Shown: one piece after another, positions 27,909 to 39,619 of the stretch
How the letters are laid out: each line of letters begins with the position of its first letter
Position numbering within the stretch: the stretch's first letter is position 1
Assembly (NCBI GenBank): GCA_021295735.1
Contig: JAGWBU010000102.1
Location: 1-39,619 of the forward strand
Source: Candidatus Poribacteria bacterium
GTDB lineage: Bacteria; Poribacteria; WGA-4E; WGA-3G
Direction of reading: 5' to 3'
Length of the DNA stretch: 39,619 nt
Notes under the pieces: generated by a model
What the model was told of the DNA's origin: nothing
Seen by the model: only the letters and a program-made list of their open reading frames with translations
The model's database searches: none
Translations under genes and position numbers: made by a program

Positions 27909-27937
27909 TTGACATACATACATATATATATTAACGT
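27909..27937 (+). promoter_or_regulatory. candidate sigma-70-type promoter of the LamG gene
   Basis: TTGACA at 27909-27914 is a perfect -35. With a 17-base spacer the -10 would be TAACGT, a weak match that falls inside the left inverted repeat. The -35 and upstream AT-rich sequence resemble the promoter at 28998. Confidence 0.45.
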
Positions 27938-28006
27938 GAGTTCGGAAAAAGATGTAGGGTTCTAATGAAATTTGTGGAACCGGTTTTGCCCGGTCCTAAC
28001 GACCAA
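27931..28006 (+). repeat. left arm of a long inverted repeat framing the LamG gene
   Basis: This 76-base arm starts TTAACGTGAGTTCG and ends CCTAACGACCAA. Its reverse complement matches 28850-28924. Counting by eye, 60 of 76 columns agree with one gap, including both ends and AATTTGTGGAA in the middle. The arm ends 25 bases before the LamG start codon. Confidence 0.85.
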
Positions 28007-28030
28007 TACTGGACAAAAAAGGAGTCCAAA

Positions 28031-28807
28031 ATGTTTAACAAAATGTTGGTCATAGTTTTTGCTGTTATTGCAACTATTTTTATGTGTACAAATATGGCGA
28101 AAGCTCAAGTGATTACTAAAGGTTTGGTTAGCTACTGGACTTTTGATAAGGCTGATGTAGATGGCGATACTGTTAAAGACGTATTTGGGAAAAATGATGG
28201 AACCATGAAGGGCGACCCCAAAGTAGTTGAAGGTAAAGTCGGTCAGGCACTGGAGTTTGATGGTGATGATTATGTGGATTTCGGAGTTCCCGAAAGTTTG
28301 AATATAGATCCACCACTTACAGTTTCGATGTTTATTAATAATAAGGATCAGTCTGCCAGTTTCATATGGCAGGGCGGTGAGAAGAGTGGATCGACTAAGA
28401 ACTATATTTATATGAGGAATGATGGCGGGATGAACGTTGGTCAATGGCCACCTGGCGGCGGAGATTTGAATTCTCCTGGGGGGATTCTTGAAACACGCGG
28501 TGATTGGTATTATATCACTGCTGTTTTTGATGACCAATATCTTCTTTATGTCGATGGAGCTTTAAAGGGGGAACTCAAAGCAGAAGTTTACTCAGGTCCG
28601 ACCCCTACAGCTTGGCTACTTGGAACAAGGCTATTCCCTGCTAATGCTGCCTATTACTTCATAGGTCTCGTTGACGAACTTGGTGTTTATAATCGAGCGC
28701 TAAGTGAAGACGAAATCAACCAAAACATGGATGCAAAAGGGTGGGCTGACGTAAAGCCTGCTAATAAGTTAGCGCTTACTTGGGGAGATCTAAAAGCTTC
28801 AAGATAA
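28031..28807 (+). CDS. secreted LamG / concanavalin A-like lectin-domain protein with C-terminal tag
   Basis: The start is set at ATG 28031, six bases after AAGGAG, giving a clean signal peptide (MFNKMLVIVFAVIATIFM ... AKA). An ATG at 27965 would lie inside the inverted-repeat arm and spoil it. The product is 258 residues: GLVSYWTFDKADVDGDTVKD, GKVGQALEFDGDDYVDFGVP, LTVSMFINNKD, GDWYYITAVFDDQYLLYVDG, FIGLVDELGVYNRALSEDEI. This is a complete LamG domain. It ends VKPANKLALTWGDLKASR, a divergent version of the shared tag. It is the only gene between two inverted-repeat arms (27931-28006 and 28850-28924), suggesting it may have been acquired or moved as a unit. No transposase is present. The inferred role is extracellular ligand binding. 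Confidence 0.88.
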   Translation: MFNKMLVIVFAVIATIFMCTNMAKAQVITKGLVSYWTFDKADVDGDTVKDVFGKNDGTMKGDPKVVEGKVGQALEFDGDDYVDFGVPESLNIDPPLTVSMFINNKDQSASFIWQGGEKSGSTKNYIYMRNDGGMNVGQWPPGGGDLNSPGGILETRGDWYYITAVFDDQYLLYVDGALKGELKAEVYSGPTPTAWLLGTRLFPANAAYYFIGLVDELGVYNRALSEDEINQNMDAKGWADVKPANKLALTWGDLKASR

Positions 28808-28849
28808 CCTCAACTTAGCTAACACATAATCACGAAGTGAAAACTAAAC

Positions 28850-28924
28850 TTGGTCGTTAGGCCTGGGCATAAAACCTTCCACAAATTACACCTGATATCT
28901 AAATCTTTTTCGAACTCACGTTAA
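28850..28924 (-). repeat. right arm of a long inverted repeat framing the LamG gene
   Basis: This arm starts TTGGTCGTTAGG and ends CGAACTCACGTTAA. It is the inverted partner of 27931-28006. TTAA is at the outer end of both arms. The sequences inside the arms are unrelated, so the similarity stops sharply. Confidence 0.85.
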
Positions 28925-28997
28925 AAAATAAGCGAATTCCAAAAATTATATATTTTTGCAAAATTCTCGTAAAATAACGAACTTTTTCTATTTTAAC

Positions 28998-33966: not shown

Positions 33967-35367
33967 ATGAACGCAGTAAAACGATGTGATGGTATTAGCC
34001 GCCGTGATTTTCTACGCGTCGGTGGATTGGCAGCACTCGGATTAGGATTAGGCGACTTTTTTCACCTGCAACGCGCCTTTGCTGGCAACAGTCCACTCAC
34101 AGCGAAAGCAAAATCCTGTATCCTGATATGGCTCGATGGGGGTCCCAGTCATCTGGAAACTTTTGACCCAAAACCGGACGCTCCGCAAGAGGTTCGCGGA
34201 CCCCTAAAGACTATTCCCACGAATGTGACAGGCGTGCGTATCAGTGAATGTTTGGGGCGAACAGCAGCCATTATGGATAAAATCGCCATCATTCGCTCAA
34301 TGACCTCGCCGCTTGGTGAACACAGCCTCGGCACCCAATATTTGATGACAGGATACAAACCTACACCTGCTTTGGAGTATCCGACTTTTGGTGCAACGCT
34401 TGCTTTTATCAGGTCTCAAAGTAGCAAAGACTCTCCGATTACTGCTACTGAAAATAACGCTGTGACCACTGCTTTGCCACCCAACATTGCAGTTCCTAAC
34501 TTCACCCGTGAAGTATCAGGTAACGGATATCTGCCAAGTGCCACACGTCCGTTTTCTGTTGGTGGCAATCCTAATAAAGATGACTTTAAGGGGAGTAATG
34601 GCGGCTTTAAGGTGCGCGACCTTGATTTTTATCAAGGTATTGATATCGATCGTCTTTCGCGACGAAGACAATTTGTCAACGCACTTAACGAATTTAGTAG
34701 TGCTAAAGACGCTGGCGCACTGACAGTTTCGGATCCAGAGTTGGAACGCGCCTATAATCTGATAACATCTCCCGAAGCAAAAGCGGCATTCTCGCTTTCC
34801 GAGGAACCTCAAGAGGTGCGCCATCGATATGGCACAGGTGGCGTAAACGGAATAGGACTGAGTTGTTTGTTGGCACGAAGGCTTGTTGAGAGAAGTGTGC
34901 CATTCGTAACTGTCAATCATGCAGGGTGGGACACGCATCAGGATATCTTCACACTTAAAGAACGTTACCCGACAGACCGAAATGCACATCTACCATCACT
35001 TGATAAGGCACTGAGCGCGCTAATCCAAGACCTTACTGACCGACGTATGTTAAATGAAACACTTGTGGTAGTTATGGGTGAGTTTGGTCGCACACCGAAA
35101 ATTAACTCGCAAGGTGGACGTGATCATTGGCCTAACGTGTTCAGCGTGATGTTGGCTGGGGGCGGCGTGCAAGGCGGACAGATCGTCGGCAGCAGCGATG
35201 TGCTCGGCGAATTTCCAAAGGAACGTCCGGTGACACCTTCGGATCTGTCAGCGACAATCTATACACTACTCGGTATTGACCCTGGCTTGGAGCTGCATAC
35301 CAGTGATGGTCGCCCTGTCCGCGTCGCACCTGATGGGGCAAACGTCGTTTCAGAATTAATTGCTTAG
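33967..35367 (+). CDS. DUF1501 (sulfatase-like alkaline-phosphatase fold) protein with Tat signal
   Basis: The product is 466 residues, with GAGGAG before the ATG. A twin-arginine signal (ISRRDFLRVGGLAALGLGLG, RR at 12-13) indicates export in folded form. The DUF1501 core follows: KSCILIWLDGGPSHLETFDPKPDAP, LDKIAIIRSMTS-like (MDKIAIIRSMTSPLGEHSLGT), VTVNHAGWDTHQDIF and VVVMGEFGRTPKINSQGGRDHWPNVFSVMLAGGG. These match the family's sulfatase-related architecture. Its role is not biochemically established, but it is nearly always encoded beside a DUF1549/DUF1553 cytochrome-type protein, as here. The next gene follows after 17 bases. Together with the cytochrome-WD40 gene it forms an operon typical of Planctomycetota and related phyla, thought to act on extracellular polymers. 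Confidence 0.92.
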   Translation: MNAVKRCDGISRRDFLRVGGLAALGLGLGDFFHLQRAFAGNSPLTAKAKSCILIWLDGGPSHLETFDPKPDAPQEVRGPLKTIPTNVTGVRISECLGRTAAIMDKIAIIRSMTSPLGEHSLGTQYLMTGYKPTPALEYPTFGATLAFIRSQSSKDSPITATENNAVTTALPPNIAVPNFTREVSGNGYLPSATRPFSVGGNPNKDDFKGSNGGFKVRDLDFYQGIDIDRLSRRRQFVNALNEFSSAKDAGALTVSDPELERAYNLITSPEAKAAFSLSEEPQEVRHRYGTGGVNGIGLSCLLARRLVERSVPFVTVNHAGWDTHQDIFTLKERYPTDRNAHLPSLDKALSALIQDLTDRRMLNETLVVVMGEFGRTPKINSQGGRDHWPNVFSVMLAGGGVQGGQIVGSSDVLGEFPKERPVTPSDLSATIYTLLGIDPGLELHTSDGRPVRVAPDGANVVSELIA

Positions 35368-35384
35368 ATTTATGGAGCGTTAAA

Positions 35385-37568
35385 ATGAAAGTAATCCGAT
35401 TTACTCTCAACGTATTCGCGCTGTCAGCCGTGCTATTCTTGTGCGGTCAAATCTACCAGAATGTATCCTTTGCAAACAACGATCAGACTAATTTTGCTGC
35501 ATCACAATCGTCTGACCGTGTTGACTTTGAAAATGACTTGATACCGATTTTTACAAAGTTTGGGTGTAATTCGGGGGCATGTCATGGTTCAGCGGCTGGT
35601 AGAGGAGAGTTCAAGTTATCGCTCTTTGGCGGTAACCTACAAGCGGACTATAAGGCAATTGTTCGACAACTCGCGGGCAGGCGTATCAATCTGATGCACC
35701 CAGAAGAGAGCCTTGTGATTCTAAAACCGACAGCGCAAACTAACCATGGCGGTGGTCATGTGTTGGACGAAAATGGGGAAGGTGCGTTATTACTCCGCAA
35801 CTGGATCCAACAAGGTGCATCCTATGAAACGCTGCGTCGTTTGGAACGCGTTGAAATATCACCACAAAAACAGGTGATAGCGAATCTTGAGAGTCCCATT
35901 CAATTGCACGCAGATGCTCATTTTTCAGATGGAACGAAAAGAGATGTAACACGATGGACTGTTTTTACGCCAGCTACTGCCGTAGCCAAATTGCATCGCC
36001 GTGGTCGGCACATCATTATTGCTCGCTATCTCACGGAGGTAGTCCCGATTGAACTCATTGCACCTTTAAACGAAGTTCCCATACAAAATAACAAAAAAAG
36101 TGGCGAAACGCACACGCCTCCAAATATTGATAGTGAAATCCTCAAATTGCTATCAACGCTTCGGCTGCCTGTGTCACCAACTGTTGATGATGCCACTTTC
36201 CTACGTAGAGTGACGCTTGATCTCACAGGACGCATTCCCACACCAGACGCAGCAACCCGATTCCTCACAGATTCAAATACAGATAAACGGGAAACATTGG
36301 TTGATACCTTACTTCAGTCAAATGAATTTAACGAGTACTGGACACTGCAATTAGCAAAACTGCTGCGGATAGGCGCACGTGATAGAAACACACAAGGCGC
36401 GTTTGTCTACCATCAATGGCTTTCCCTACAGATTCGGGACGGTATTGGATATGACCAAATGGCGCGCTCGGTTATTTTGGCAATAGGTGATTCTCACGAA
36501 GTTGGTCCGGCGAATTTTTACCGCACCGTCAATGGTCCGCGTGAACAAGCAGAATTCATGAGTGAACTCTTCATGGGAGCACGGCTGCGATGCGCCAATT
36601 GCCATAGTCATCCACTTGACAAGTGGACACAGGACGATTACCACGGGTTAGCAGCGATCTTTGCCAAAATAGAAGGCGATCAGATCGTCAAAGTAAAACC
36701 TTCTGGTGAGGTTCTCCATCCAGCCACACGCGAAAAAGCAGTGCCGCGGATTCCCGGCAATCGGTTTCTGCCTACCGATGTCGCTGATGGTCGTCTCGAA
36801 TTGGTGGACTGGCTAACAAGTTCCGATAACCCATATTTCGCCAAAGCGATTGTCAATCGGTTATGGAAGGCAATGATGGGGCGTGGGTTAGTTGAACCTG
36901 TTGACGATTTTCGGTCTACTAATCCTGCTACGCATCCTGAATTGCTGACAACGTTAGCGGACGATTTTGTGGCGCACGGCTACGATCTGCGTCGCACACT
37001 CAAGCGCATCGCGCTTAGTGAGGCTTACGCGCGTAGTTCAAATGCGCTTCCGCAAAACAAGGCAGATGATCGCTTCTATTCTCATGCACTACAAAAACCG
37101 CTTGCGCCAGAGGTGTTGGCAGATGCTATATCAGATGTGCTCGGTGTACCTGATATTTATGGTGATGAACCGGAAGGCACCCGTGCTATCTCTCTGTTTA
37201 ATCCGAATACTGAATCCGACGCACTGGATATTCTTGGCAGATGTTCACGTAAAACTTCATGCGAGAGTTCTACTGAAGCAACGGATGGACTTCAACGTAA
37301 ACTGCACCTGTTCAATGGCGACCTTCTCAATGCCCGCATCGGTGTTCCGGATAGTCGACTTGATAAACTGATGTCGGATAGGAAATCCCCGATGGAAATT
37401 GTGAATGAATTTTATCTCGCAGCGTTAAGTCGGCAGCCAACGGATACTGAGCAGCAGTTTTGGAAACAGCACATTGATGTCAACACATCCGCCAATTCAC
37501 AACGAGCAGTCCTTGAAGATATGGTATGGAGTTTGCTAACCTGCAATGAATTTGTGAATAATAATTAG
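35385..37568 (+). CDS. PSD1/PSCyt-type protein (DUF1549 + DUF1553) with haem-binding motifs
   Basis: The product is 727 residues, with GGAGC near the start. A signal peptide (FALSAVLFLCGQIYQNVSFA) is followed by a cytochrome-like segment: DLIPIFTKFGCNSGACHG has a Cx4CH pattern (C61, C66, H67), frequent in this family. DUF1549 (FLRRVTLDLTGRIPTPDAATRFL) spans about residues 240-420 and contains RCANCHSHPLDKW with a true CxxCH (C403, C406, H407). DUF1553 follows (NPYFAKAIVNRLWKAMMGRGLVEPVDDFRSTNPATHPELL) up to the end. These proteins are periplasmic or outer-surface components of large planctomycete-type operons and probably act with the adjacent DUF1501 protein. The reaction is unknown. It starts 17 bases after the DUF1501 gene and ends 19 bases before the next. 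Confidence 0.92.
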   Translation: MKVIRFTLNVFALSAVLFLCGQIYQNVSFANNDQTNFAASQSSDRVDFENDLIPIFTKFGCNSGACHGSAAGRGEFKLSLFGGNLQADYKAIVRQLAGRRINLMHPEESLVILKPTAQTNHGGGHVLDENGEGALLLRNWIQQGASYETLRRLERVEISPQKQVIANLESPIQLHADAHFSDGTKRDVTRWTVFTPATAVAKLHRRGRHIIIARYLTEVVPIELIAPLNEVPIQNNKKSGETHTPPNIDSEILKLLSTLRLPVSPTVDDATFLRRVTLDLTGRIPTPDAATRFLTDSNTDKRETLVDTLLQSNEFNEYWTLQLAKLLRIGARDRNTQGAFVYHQWLSLQIRDGIGYDQMARSVILAIGDSHEVGPANFYRTVNGPREQAEFMSELFMGARLRCANCHSHPLDKWTQDDYHGLAAIFAKIEGDQIVKVKPSGEVLHPATREKAVPRIPGNRFLPTDVADGRLELVDWLTSSDNPYFAKAIVNRLWKAMMGRGLVEPVDDFRSTNPATHPELLTTLADDFVAHGYDLRRTLKRIALSEAYARSSNALPQNKADDRFYSHALQKPLAPEVLADAISDVLGVPDIYGDEPEGTRAISLFNPNTESDALDILGRCSRKTSCESSTEATDGLQRKLHLFNGDLLNARIGVPDSRLDKLMSDRKSPMEIVNEFYLAALSRQPTDTEQQFWKQHIDVNTSANSQRAVLEDMVWSLLTCNEFVNNN

Positions 37569-37587
37569 CAGGTTAAAGGAAATTAGT

Positions 37588-38928
37588 ATGAATCTTGAAA
37601 GGTGTCTGAATTTAGTAGCTTTTATATTTATCCTGATGTCTGCGGCACCTGCTATCTCGGCAGATCCTAAAACTGAAATTGATTTTGAGAAACAGATTTT
37701 GCCTATCCTTCAGAATCGTTGCTTCAGTTGCCATAGTGCGCCAAAGACAGATTCCGATGGGAACGTCACGAAGCCGAAAGGTGATGTCCAACTGGATAGC
37801 GTGAAAGGTATTGAGGAGAGCAGGAACGGAGAGGTAATTATCGCAGGTGAACCTGATGATTCCCTTCTCTACCAACGTATTACCTTACCTGAAGGTGAAA
37901 CCGGTATAATGCCACCGTCAGAAGAAGCCAACCCCTTAACAGAGCAGCAGATTGACCTTATCCGAAAGTGGATTAAAGGTGGAGCAAACTACGGTAATTG
38001 GAAAGGAAATCAATCGCAGCACAAACCATCAAGTGCCAATAGCAATCCCCACCAACCTCCCATCATGCCACCAATTACCTCTCTTGCATTTTCTCATGAT
38101 GGAAAATCTGTCATGGCATGTTCGCAAGCAGGGTTGCACGTTTACGATTGGCCAACACTCAACCTACAGAAGATGATTAAAGTGCAAGCCAAAAACGTTC
38201 ACGATCTTGCTTTTTCGCCGAGCGGCGATAGATTGGCAGTTGGTGGCGGGAATCCTGCAATTGAGGGTATCGTAGAGATTTTTTCGTGGCCTGAAGCAAA
38301 ATCGCTCCGTGTTCTTAAAAAGCATCGTGATTCAGTCACGGCAGTGGCGTGGCGAGATGTATCAGTCCTTGCATCAGCGAGCTTAGACCGGCGCATTATT
38401 CTTTGGGACTTACACACCGGAACTCCGATTCAAGACCTGCAAGGGCATTCAAAAGGGGTATCATCTCTCTGTTTCCTGAATGATAAAGATATGCTCGTAA
38501 GCACAGGGATAGATCAGAGTGTCCGCGTTTGGGATTTGACATCGGGGGAGTTAATCCGAAGTATGAACAATCACACGCTGCCCGTGCATGACCTTGCGCT
38601 GCGTCCGGGTGAGGCAAGGCTTCCCGTGATAGTCTCTGCAGGTGACGACCGTACCGTTCGCTTCTGGCAGCCAACTATTGGTCGTATGGTAAAGTTTGCA
38701 CGGTTCAAGGTAGCACCACTGGACGTGGCATGGTTGAATGACGGATCAAAGGTTGTTGCCTCCTGTGCCGATGGGCGTATCCGTATCATTGACCCAGATT
38801 TGGTAGAGGTTACAGATGAAATTCCTGCCTTAAACGGTTGGGCATACTCACTAACCGTCCATCCTACAGACGGTAGCATCGTTATTGGTGGAGCAAACGG
38901 TCAAGTTCTGCGGATTACTCCTAAATAA
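37588..38928 (+). CDS. secreted protein with c-type cytochrome (PSCyt1-like) domain fused to a WD40 propeller
   Basis: The product is 446 residues, with AAAGGA before the ATG. A signal peptide (LVAFIFILMSAAPAISA) is followed by a small cytochrome domain: ILQNRCFSCHSAP with CxxCH (C45, C48, H49), then GEPDDSLLYQRITLPEGETGIMPP (Met as likely axial ligand) and LTEQQIDLIRKWIKGGANY. Residues about 155-446 form a WD40 propeller (LAFSHDGKSVMACS, LAFSPSGDRLAVGG, VAWRDVSVLASASLDRRIILWDL, SVRVWDLTSGELI, VSAGDDRTVRFWQP). Both halves are typical of planctomycete-type proteins. It is the third gene of the DUF1501/PSD1 operon and may give electron-transfer and docking functions to the complex in the periplasm or on the surface. 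It does not carry the KLTTTWG tag. Confidence 0.92.
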   Translation: MNLERCLNLVAFIFILMSAAPAISADPKTEIDFEKQILPILQNRCFSCHSAPKTDSDGNVTKPKGDVQLDSVKGIEESRNGEVIIAGEPDDSLLYQRITLPEGETGIMPPSEEANPLTEQQIDLIRKWIKGGANYGNWKGNQSQHKPSSANSNPHQPPIMPPITSLAFSHDGKSVMACSQAGLHVYDWPTLNLQKMIKVQAKNVHDLAFSPSGDRLAVGGGNPAIEGIVEIFSWPEAKSLRVLKKHRDSVTAVAWRDVSVLASASLDRRIILWDLHTGTPIQDLQGHSKGVSSLCFLNDKDMLVSTGIDQSVRVWDLTSGELIRSMNNHTLPVHDLALRPGEARLPVIVSAGDDRTVRFWQPTIGRMVKFARFKVAPLDVAWLNDGSKVVASCADGRIRIIDPDLVEVTDEIPALNGWAYSLTVHPTDGSIVIGGANGQVLRITPK

Positions 38929-39214
38929 CTGAAATAGTATTGTGAAACAGACCGTCAAGTACAACAACTGCAGGTTCCAATATAGGTAGAGGTGGATGTT
39001 CCCCCAATTCCTCGCGCTTCCAAGGTGCGACGGGTCAACGCATTTTAGTAACCTGCTTTCTATATATGACGTGTTAATTATACGATAAAACTTAGAAAGA
39101 TGTTTGTTGAATATTCTATAGTTTGGATAATTTTTCAAACGTGAGTTGATATAAGAAATTGGTTCACGACTTATGTTGCTAAATCAACGCACGACAAGCA
39201 AAAGGAAACTCTCT
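38929..39214. other. intergenic region with no recognised feature
   Basis: After the cytochrome-WD40 stop I see no terminator with a clear T-tract, no open reading frame with a ribosome-binding site, and no RNA gene. Confidence 0.5.
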
Positions 39215-39231
39215 TTGCTCCAGCGGAGCAA
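39215..39231. repeat. palindromic repeat 1 of 4
   Basis: TTGCTCC, the loop AGC, and GGAGCAA form a perfect 7-bp hairpin. The core CTCCAGCGGAG is shared with the next three elements. Confidence 0.85.
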
Positions 39232-39262
39232 TATGTTTATAGCCCATTATGAACCGACATAT

Positions 39263-39279
39263 CCGCTCCAGCGGAGCGG
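39263..39279. repeat. palindromic repeat 2 of 4
   Basis: CCGCTCC, the loop AGC, and GGAGCGG form a perfect 7-bp hairpin with the same core orientation as repeat 1. The outer stem differs but still pairs. Confidence 0.85.
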
Positions 39280-39298
39280 TCCGTGATTTCGACACATA

Positions 39299-39315
39299 GC
39301 ACTCCGCTGGAGTGC
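39299..39315. repeat. palindromic repeat 3 of 4
   Basis: GCACTCC, the loop GCT, and GGAGTGC form a perfect 7-bp hairpin. The core CTCCGCTGGAG is the reverse complement of that in repeats 1 and 2. Confidence 0.85.
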
Positions 39316-39348
39316 GAGAATGTGTGTATACCGTTTTCTATAGACATA

Positions 39349-39365
39349 ACACTCCGCTGGAGTGT
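39349..39365. repeat. palindromic repeat 4 of 4
   Basis: ACACTCC, the loop GCT, and GGAGTGT form a perfect 7-bp hairpin in the same orientation as repeat 3. From 39366 to the window end (39619) I see AT-rich sequence and no supported gene. Confidence 0.85.
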
Positions 39366-39619
39366 GGCATTTTCGCGGTGTTCCACTGATATGCGAAACT
39401 CGTCCAAAAATAGATTTTCTGTTGAAACTCAACTTCCACGAGACAAGAATTTCTCAAATTATAGTGAATATAAACAATACAATTTAAGGGTTCGTATAGT
39501 CTGTGAAAATTATAGGATTAGCAAGAACTTCGGTTTTATCTATAGTAAAACCTATAATTAATGGGACACTTCTGTAGCGCAAACTTTATGAAGTTTAAGA
39601 AAATAATTCGGTAATTTAG

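Follow-up and report, generated by a model that had tools for sequence, protein, structure and literature searches.

Facing tandem-hairpin repeats in a Poribacterial MITE, probably the cognate repeats of an HUH/Y1 transposase with subclass 1.2 motifs

What are four small hairpins with the same core, two facing one way and two the other, and which enzyme do they answer to? They lie at 39215-39365 of the window (the whole stretch of 39,619 nucleotides of Candidatus Poribacteria DNA analysed here, from a sponge-dwelling bacterium), and each of them is 17 nt long, with a 7-bp stem and a 3-nt loop (Table 1). The preliminary description had reported four palindromes with 7-bp stems, outer stem pairs that vary and yet always pair, and a flip in orientation between repeats 1-2 and 3-4, and on all three counts it was right. 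Positions and stems are as it gave them, all four 11-mer cores are exact, and the hairpins form two direct pairs, H1-H2 and H3-H4, that face each other in the order + + - -. Shuffled windows, with up to one mismatch allowed, held 0.18 cores on average and two at most, and none of the 100 reached four.

Table 1. Coordinates of the hairpins, of the element that carries them and of neighbouring features, in positions of the window.
Feature	Position	Strand	Remarks
Hairpin H1, TTGCTCC-AGC-GGAGCAA	39215-39231	+	Outer pairs TTG/CAA
Conserved tag, TATGT + TTATAG	39232-39242	+	Follows the first hairpin of a pair (core-N9-ATAG)
Hairpin H2, CCGCTCC-AGC-GGAGCGG	39263-39279	+	Outer pairs CCG/CGG; direct pair with H1, 48 bp
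Hairpin H3, GCACTCC-GCT-GGAGTGC on + (AGC loop on -)	39299-39315	-	Outer pairs GCA/TGC
CTATAGACATA	39338-39348		Directly before H4
Hairpin H4, ACACTCC-GCT-GGAGTGT on +	39349-39365	-	Outer pairs ACA/TGT; 50 bp from H3
Family A MITE, 351 bp	39115-39465		All four hairpins, no transposase gene; defined by the ends of 20 copies, the G003 empty site and full-length genome copies
Left terminal inverted repeat, TCTATAGTTTGGATAATTTTTC	39115-39136	+	Family form ACTATAGTTTGGACAATTTTT
Right terminal inverted repeat	39444-39465	-	Reverse complement starts ACTATAATTTGAGAAATT
Target site duplication, left, GAATAT	39109-39114		7 bp counting the adjoining T
Target site duplication, right, GAATAT	39466-39471
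DUF1501, PSCyt2/PSD1 and PSCyt1-WD40 genes in a row	33967-38928		Planctomycete-type cytochrome cluster, just left of the MITE
Family-D-like inverted repeats (TAACGTGAGTTCG...)	27931-28925		Around a single 280-aa LamG/ConA-domain ORF (27965-28807), no transposase

Further copies in the genome and conservation in relatives, to which the preliminary description had pointed as the means of checking its reading, were both found. The core CTCCAGCGGAG occurs at 78 sites in the genome of the window, G000, against one for the reversed pattern; the 11-mer is present in 19 of 21 genomes, with 274 cores in one of them (G013), and DNA of the element was matched in 36 of 59. A search of plasmids gave only two records, both below 60% identity. 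Context was analysed for 77 of the 78 sites, all but the one on C211. These 77 sites make up 38 clusters, all but two of which lie outside ORFs of at least 150 aa in a simple ORF scan. Same-strand spacings below 120 bp (25 listed) are strikingly uniform, with 24 at 48-50 bp and one at 45 bp, and the stem is followed by TATGT at 56 of the 77 sites, most commonly within the longer forms TATGTTTATA or TATGTCTATA.

The changes in the outer stem had been taken as covariation, implying that the folded form matters. Indeed, all three outer pairs are Watson-Crick at 65 of the 77 sites (shuffle mean 22.8, maximum 35) and in 38 of 50 distinct contexts (shuffle mean 12.8, maximum 22), far above shuffled expectation. 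Among the window's hairpins, H4 departs from GCA/TGC by a double change (ACA/TGT) that leaves every pair intact, and the half-changed ACA/TGC exists at two other sites. But the apparent covariation reflects mostly a few founder hairpins that were copied often, rather than many independent compensatory events, because three stem types (CCG/CGG at 30 sites, GCA/TGC at 21 and TTG/CAA at 12) account for 63 of the 77 sites, and each type keeps its own position within family-A elements, as judged by eye.

The likening of the repeats to REP or BIME elements has to be amended. The repeat of the window is not free-standing, a point that the preliminary description missed: it sits within a MITE that is bounded by terminal inverted repeats (TIRs) and flanked by a target duplication, and whose site is empty in a relative. 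A query of 311 bases found long copies in G000 and its relatives, mostly 75-90% identical, and the ends of 20 copies gave the TIR as ACTATAGTTTGGACAATTTTT / AAGAATTGTCCAAACTATAGT. AT-rich target duplications of about 6-8 bp were recognized by eye in nine of these 20, four being judged to have none and seven left unscored; examples are AATACTAT in L010, AAAGTATT in L012, AAATTCCT in L050 and GAATAT in the window. G003, a relative, shares the WD40-type gene (86% identical) and the intergenic sequence up to base 39114, where GAATAT stands once and no element follows. The segment 39115-39465 was therefore inserted as one unit. TIRs, target duplication, want of a transposase gene and empty site are joined by an autonomous parent with the same TIR, a 1.39-kb element in G010 whose open frame of 463 aa is closest to IS701 transposases (168.1 bits against the IS701 model, slightly below its cut-off of 170). 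Relatives of this protein at 49-51% identity occur in G042, where the three copies checked have similar TIRs and duplications of 7-8 bp. G000 itself holds only fragments of an IS701-like transposase, and such an enzyme is likely the mover of the window's MITE. In G010, family-A hairpin MITEs also occur in head-to-tail arrays (L232 and L233), with a unit of 300 bp and ends that nearly touch.

A tyrosine transposase had also been proposed as a partner to look for, and a Y1 gene with the same hairpins on both sides is present in relatives. At the PF01797 genes of both G010 and G007, pairs that share the AGC core and the 49-bp spacing lie on the + strand upstream and on the - strand downstream. 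In G000 the Y1 gene next to hairpins is broken (on C165, where the match is split into overlapping pieces and interrupted by a stop), and its intact relative, at C41, shows no pair in scans with 6-bp arms; intact copies are few in each genome. We scanned GTDB genomes with the G010 protein and studied the best 80 of 485 loci, 19 from Poribacteria and 61 from other phyla, mostly Bacteroidota and Ignavibacteriota. Within this set, direct pairs with 5-bp arms are found no more than 500 bp from the gene at 17 of 19 Poribacteria and 28 of 61 other loci, and with 6-bp arms at 10 of 19 and 7 of 61. Control flanks 2000-2500 bp out, scored at the 14 of 19 and 36 of 61 loci that offer no less than 900 bp of flank, hold none under either setting, and 15 other Y1_Tnp genes have none. 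Another 30 order loci, of which 27 have a pair, overlap in part with the 19 from Poribacteria, and we do not treat them as independent.

The layout of these pairs is shared as well. Their spacing has one maximum at 48-53 bp and a second near 100, no pairs occurring in the controls, and the order hairpin-N9-ATAG-~20 nt-hairpin is common across phyla. A hairpin followed by 8-10 nt and DTAG occurs upstream 87 times in forward and 29 times in reverse orientation, and downstream 97 times in reverse and 41 in forward (best 80 of 485 loci); 66 of the 80 loci have such a tagged hairpin in the expected orientation, against 2 of 47 control flanks, taken from those of the 80 loci that are at least 6400 bp long. 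Of 37 genomes, 22 contain the pattern GCYCCNNNGGRGC-N9-ATAG; three Poribacteria hold 39, 42 and 76 copies, counts elsewhere are 0-11, and the reversed control gave 0 in all 37. The loop triplet goes with the protein lineage better than shuffled labels do: it changes 18 times over the 40 of 80 loci that have a 3-nt loop label (20-26 times in 500 shuffles), on a quick tree with 37 of 76 inner branches weak. Poribacteria alone show five changes on 17 loci, equalled in 7 of 500 shuffles, and the remaining phyla 13 on 23, equalled in 20 of 500. Downstream of the Y1 gene at L113 and L196, at least seven hairpins follow one another in exact 50-bp steps, as a tandem-hairpin array.

As for the protein, it scores 94.4 bits against Y1_Tnp and can be aligned, across its HUH and Y regions, with IS200/IS605-type transposases of solved structure. 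Among the best 80 of 485 loci, Y---Q--HH is found in 76 and W[QE] in all 80, the median length is 154 aa, and 56 have DH[IVM]H, the others DHLH, NHVH and the like. In the portions of the study by Quentin et al. (2018, PMC6006769) drawn on here, Y---Q--HH, WQ, DH[IV]H and a median of 148 aa mark TnpA-Y1 subclass 1.2, which is mostly from Cyanobacteria and Bacteroidetes and is given as having no REPs. Judged by this published description rather than by reference sequences, our protein carries subclass 1.2 motifs. The pairs at 45 of the 80 loci (best 80 of 485) contradict the description of the subclass as lacking REPs, and not the placement of the protein.

The explanation that we favor, and consider quite probable, is that the window holds a MITE of an IS701-like DDE insertion sequence with two facing tandem-hairpin REPs, the cognate repeat of an HUH/Y1 transposase with subclass 1.2 motifs. 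By tandem-hairpin REP we mean two GC-rich triloop hairpins in the same orientation, about 49 bp apart, the first followed by N9-ATAG. On the side of the carrier, this draws directly on the boundaries of the MITE, its target duplication, its empty site and the autonomous element with the same TIR; on the side of the repeat, it draws on the architecture of the pairs, their association with the gene across phyla and their specificity for this type of Y1, which make the pair the likely cognate repeat of the transposase. From these observations we infer that the Y1 protein binds and cuts the hairpins, and that pairs at some point made a first entry into MITEs.

GTA and GGA loops closed by C-G form unusually stable d(GNA) mini-hairpins, and hence suit a single-stranded DNA substrate. 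The process could run as follows. In relatives, the pairs that lie inverted to each other on both sides of the Y1 gene constitute, with it, a REPtron-like locus. Once in single-stranded DNA, each hairpin would fold and be bound by the Y1 protein, which would cut near the conserved tag and could join the cut end elsewhere. Such activity may have seeded pairs beside the gene and into several unrelated MITEs; in most phyla the pairs remain beside the gene, and in Poribacteria the DDE-moved MITEs would then have done most of the spreading. In the better-known relatives, TnpA-REP cleaves REP DNA in single-stranded form close to the hairpin and carries out strand transfer, according to the passages of PMC8266576 relied on here, and by analogy the subclass 1.2 protein probably recognizes the folded hairpin together with its tag. 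Spreading driven by Y1 is put forward as a proposal, since the tagged hairpin is so scarce (0-11 copies) in most genomes outside Poribacteria. Also speaking against our explanation, 33 of the 61 loci from other phyla (best 80 of 485) have no pair at the settings used, the Y1 gene beside hairpins in G000 is broken, and the number of hairpins does not track an intact gene: G013, with all its cores, has only partial matches to it.

A simpler account would make the hairpins the passive interior of MITEs moved by a DDE enzyme, their likeness to the flanks of Y1 genes being a matter of ancestry with no present link. The mobility of the MITE is well supported by TIRs, target duplications and the empty site of G003, and the Y1 gene beside hairpins in G000 is broken, both as this account would have it. 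However, at least four TIR families carry the hairpin core in this Candidatus Poribacteria genome, and the same pair architecture recurs at Y1 genes. By script, 13 of the 38 clusters have the family-A TIR, 14 that of family B (ATACCAAATT; a loose test, with a 10-mer and one mismatch), three that of family C (CCCAAGTTGCTACCTA) and three both arms of family D (TAACGTGAGTT); L062 and L070a are D-like at one end by eye, L065 lies at the broken Y1 gene, L045 inside an ORF, and L067 was placed in no family. A search with a 26-mer found 13 family-B left ends, 12 of which coincide with hairpin clusters, the pattern that copying of a single founder would leave. Against this, other elements with the family-A TIR (L219, L222, L226, L228, L229, L234 and L236) hold a different pair, GCCCCAGCGGGGC or close variants, about 50 bp apart. 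With several families and two types of pair, a single passive capture does not suffice and repeated capture is needed, which leaves mere hitchhiking rather unlikely. In L228 there are two pairs, along with further inserted repeats. The D-like repeats at 27931-28925 of the window, to judge by what they enclose, may bound a MITE-like unit with a passenger gene.

Families A and D have the hairpin block and the left arm in common and differ in the right arm, and L042 (on C53 of G000) is a chimera, with the left arm of A, the right arm of D and a four-hairpin block between them. This may point to exchange at the block, although ordinary recombination would explain it equally well. An extension of our explanation, which we offer tentatively and would not expect to hold, is that the tandem hairpin is a general exchange module for single-stranded DNA, at which, in Poribacteria, the subclass 1.2 TnpA swaps arms between unrelated MITEs by cutting and joining. 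If true, a Y1 enzyme would build new elements that a DDE enzyme moves. Losses of single units within family-B copies have ragged ends, which suit slippage better than excision by a transposase and weigh against our main explanation. As a candidate for a hairpin-free family B, one element with B ends (L267) came up, but its interior differs and no insertion junction can be read from it; no insertion of a hairpin pair with an empty site of its own was found, which likewise weighs against that explanation.

It is very unlikely that the hairpins are the subterminal ends of an ordinary Y1 insertion sequence of IS200/IS605 type and of its internally deleted copies. The protein does exceed the NCBIfam cut-off for IS200/IS605 (73 against 55 bits) and falls below that for REP-associated transposases (32.6 against 80 bits). 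But at IS200/IS605 ends the hairpins point the same way, whereas here the flanking pairs are inverted to each other, the hairpins are paired on each side of the gene, and intact gene copies are few per genome. A structured RNA, the other reading suggested beforehand, or a transcript-level element (terminator, mRNA stabilizer or small RNA) found no support and is the least probable of all: folding is strong (RNA z of -7.4 for the 351-bp element) and the clusters are largely intergenic, as noted, but a palindromic MITE folds well anyway, the predicted form being long and cross-paired and not four hairpins, no Rfam family reaches its gathering threshold in the window, L049, L061 or L065, the neighboring genes show no convergent bias (4 convergent, 17 tandem, 6 divergent, 9 not classed, 2 inside ORFs), and the lack of a T-run after the hairpins dismisses a terminator. 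The same cross-paired fold contradicts the idea that differing outer stems would prevent pairing between hairpins that face one another.

The tandem-hairpin reading has consequences beyond this locus. The literature examined, as far as the portions consulted go, names no DNA partner for TnpA-Y1 subclass 1.2. A pair of triloop hairpins about 49 bp apart, with N9-ATAG, now offers a ready substrate with which the activity of the enzyme can be tested directly. Also, REP-like repeats that are spread by a second, unrelated transposition system bear on the dispersal of REPs, a question still open. In the CC0, CC BY and CC BY-SA literature of PMC, we found no report of REP-like hairpins with subclass 1.2, nor of REPs in MITEs of Poribacteria.

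Compared with known systems, the closest in kind are REP, REPIN and BIME repeats with their TnpA-REP (RAYT) proteins, as in E. coli and the REPtrons of Stenotrophomonas. They share short, GC-rich, intergenic, multicopy hairpins, a Y1/HUH gene flanked by repeats, and a repeat sequence that goes with the gene lineage, so that the REP/RAYT idea of the preliminary description was right in kind. It fails in the particulars: the canonical foot GT[AG]G is absent, the tag being a 3' TATGT, which reads as a 5' ACATA on the opposite strand; a REPIN or BIME unit is an inverted pair, whereas here the pair is direct, about 49 bp apart at the gene, and pairs face each other in the MITE; and RAYTs are class 2, with Y---NP, whereas this protein is class 1, with Y---Q--HH. 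Subclass 1.2, in what we drew on of PMC6006769, agrees in HUH, WQ, Y---Q--HH, a length of about 150 aa and few copies, and differs in that here tandem hairpins accompany the gene, in Poribacteria, Ignavibacteriota and others. IS200/IS605 elements (IS608, ISDra2) have a homologous transposase and use hairpins as substrates, but the flanking hairpins here are paired and inverted. In the parts of Di Nocera et al. (2013, PMC3733652) used here, TIRtrons (TIRYT) link Y1 transposases with TIRs as well as with REPs; there the TIRs flank the Y1 gene, whereas here they belong to DDE-type MITEs that carry the hairpins. With MITEs of IS701/IS4-like insertion sequences, finally, the window's element shares TIRs, an AT-rich target duplication of about 6-9 bp, the lack of a gene and a related autonomous element, and differs in having REP-like hairpin pairs as its core. 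What is new is a REP-like layout that goes with a Y1 subclass listed as lacking REPs, and that is carried by MITEs of IS701 type and others.
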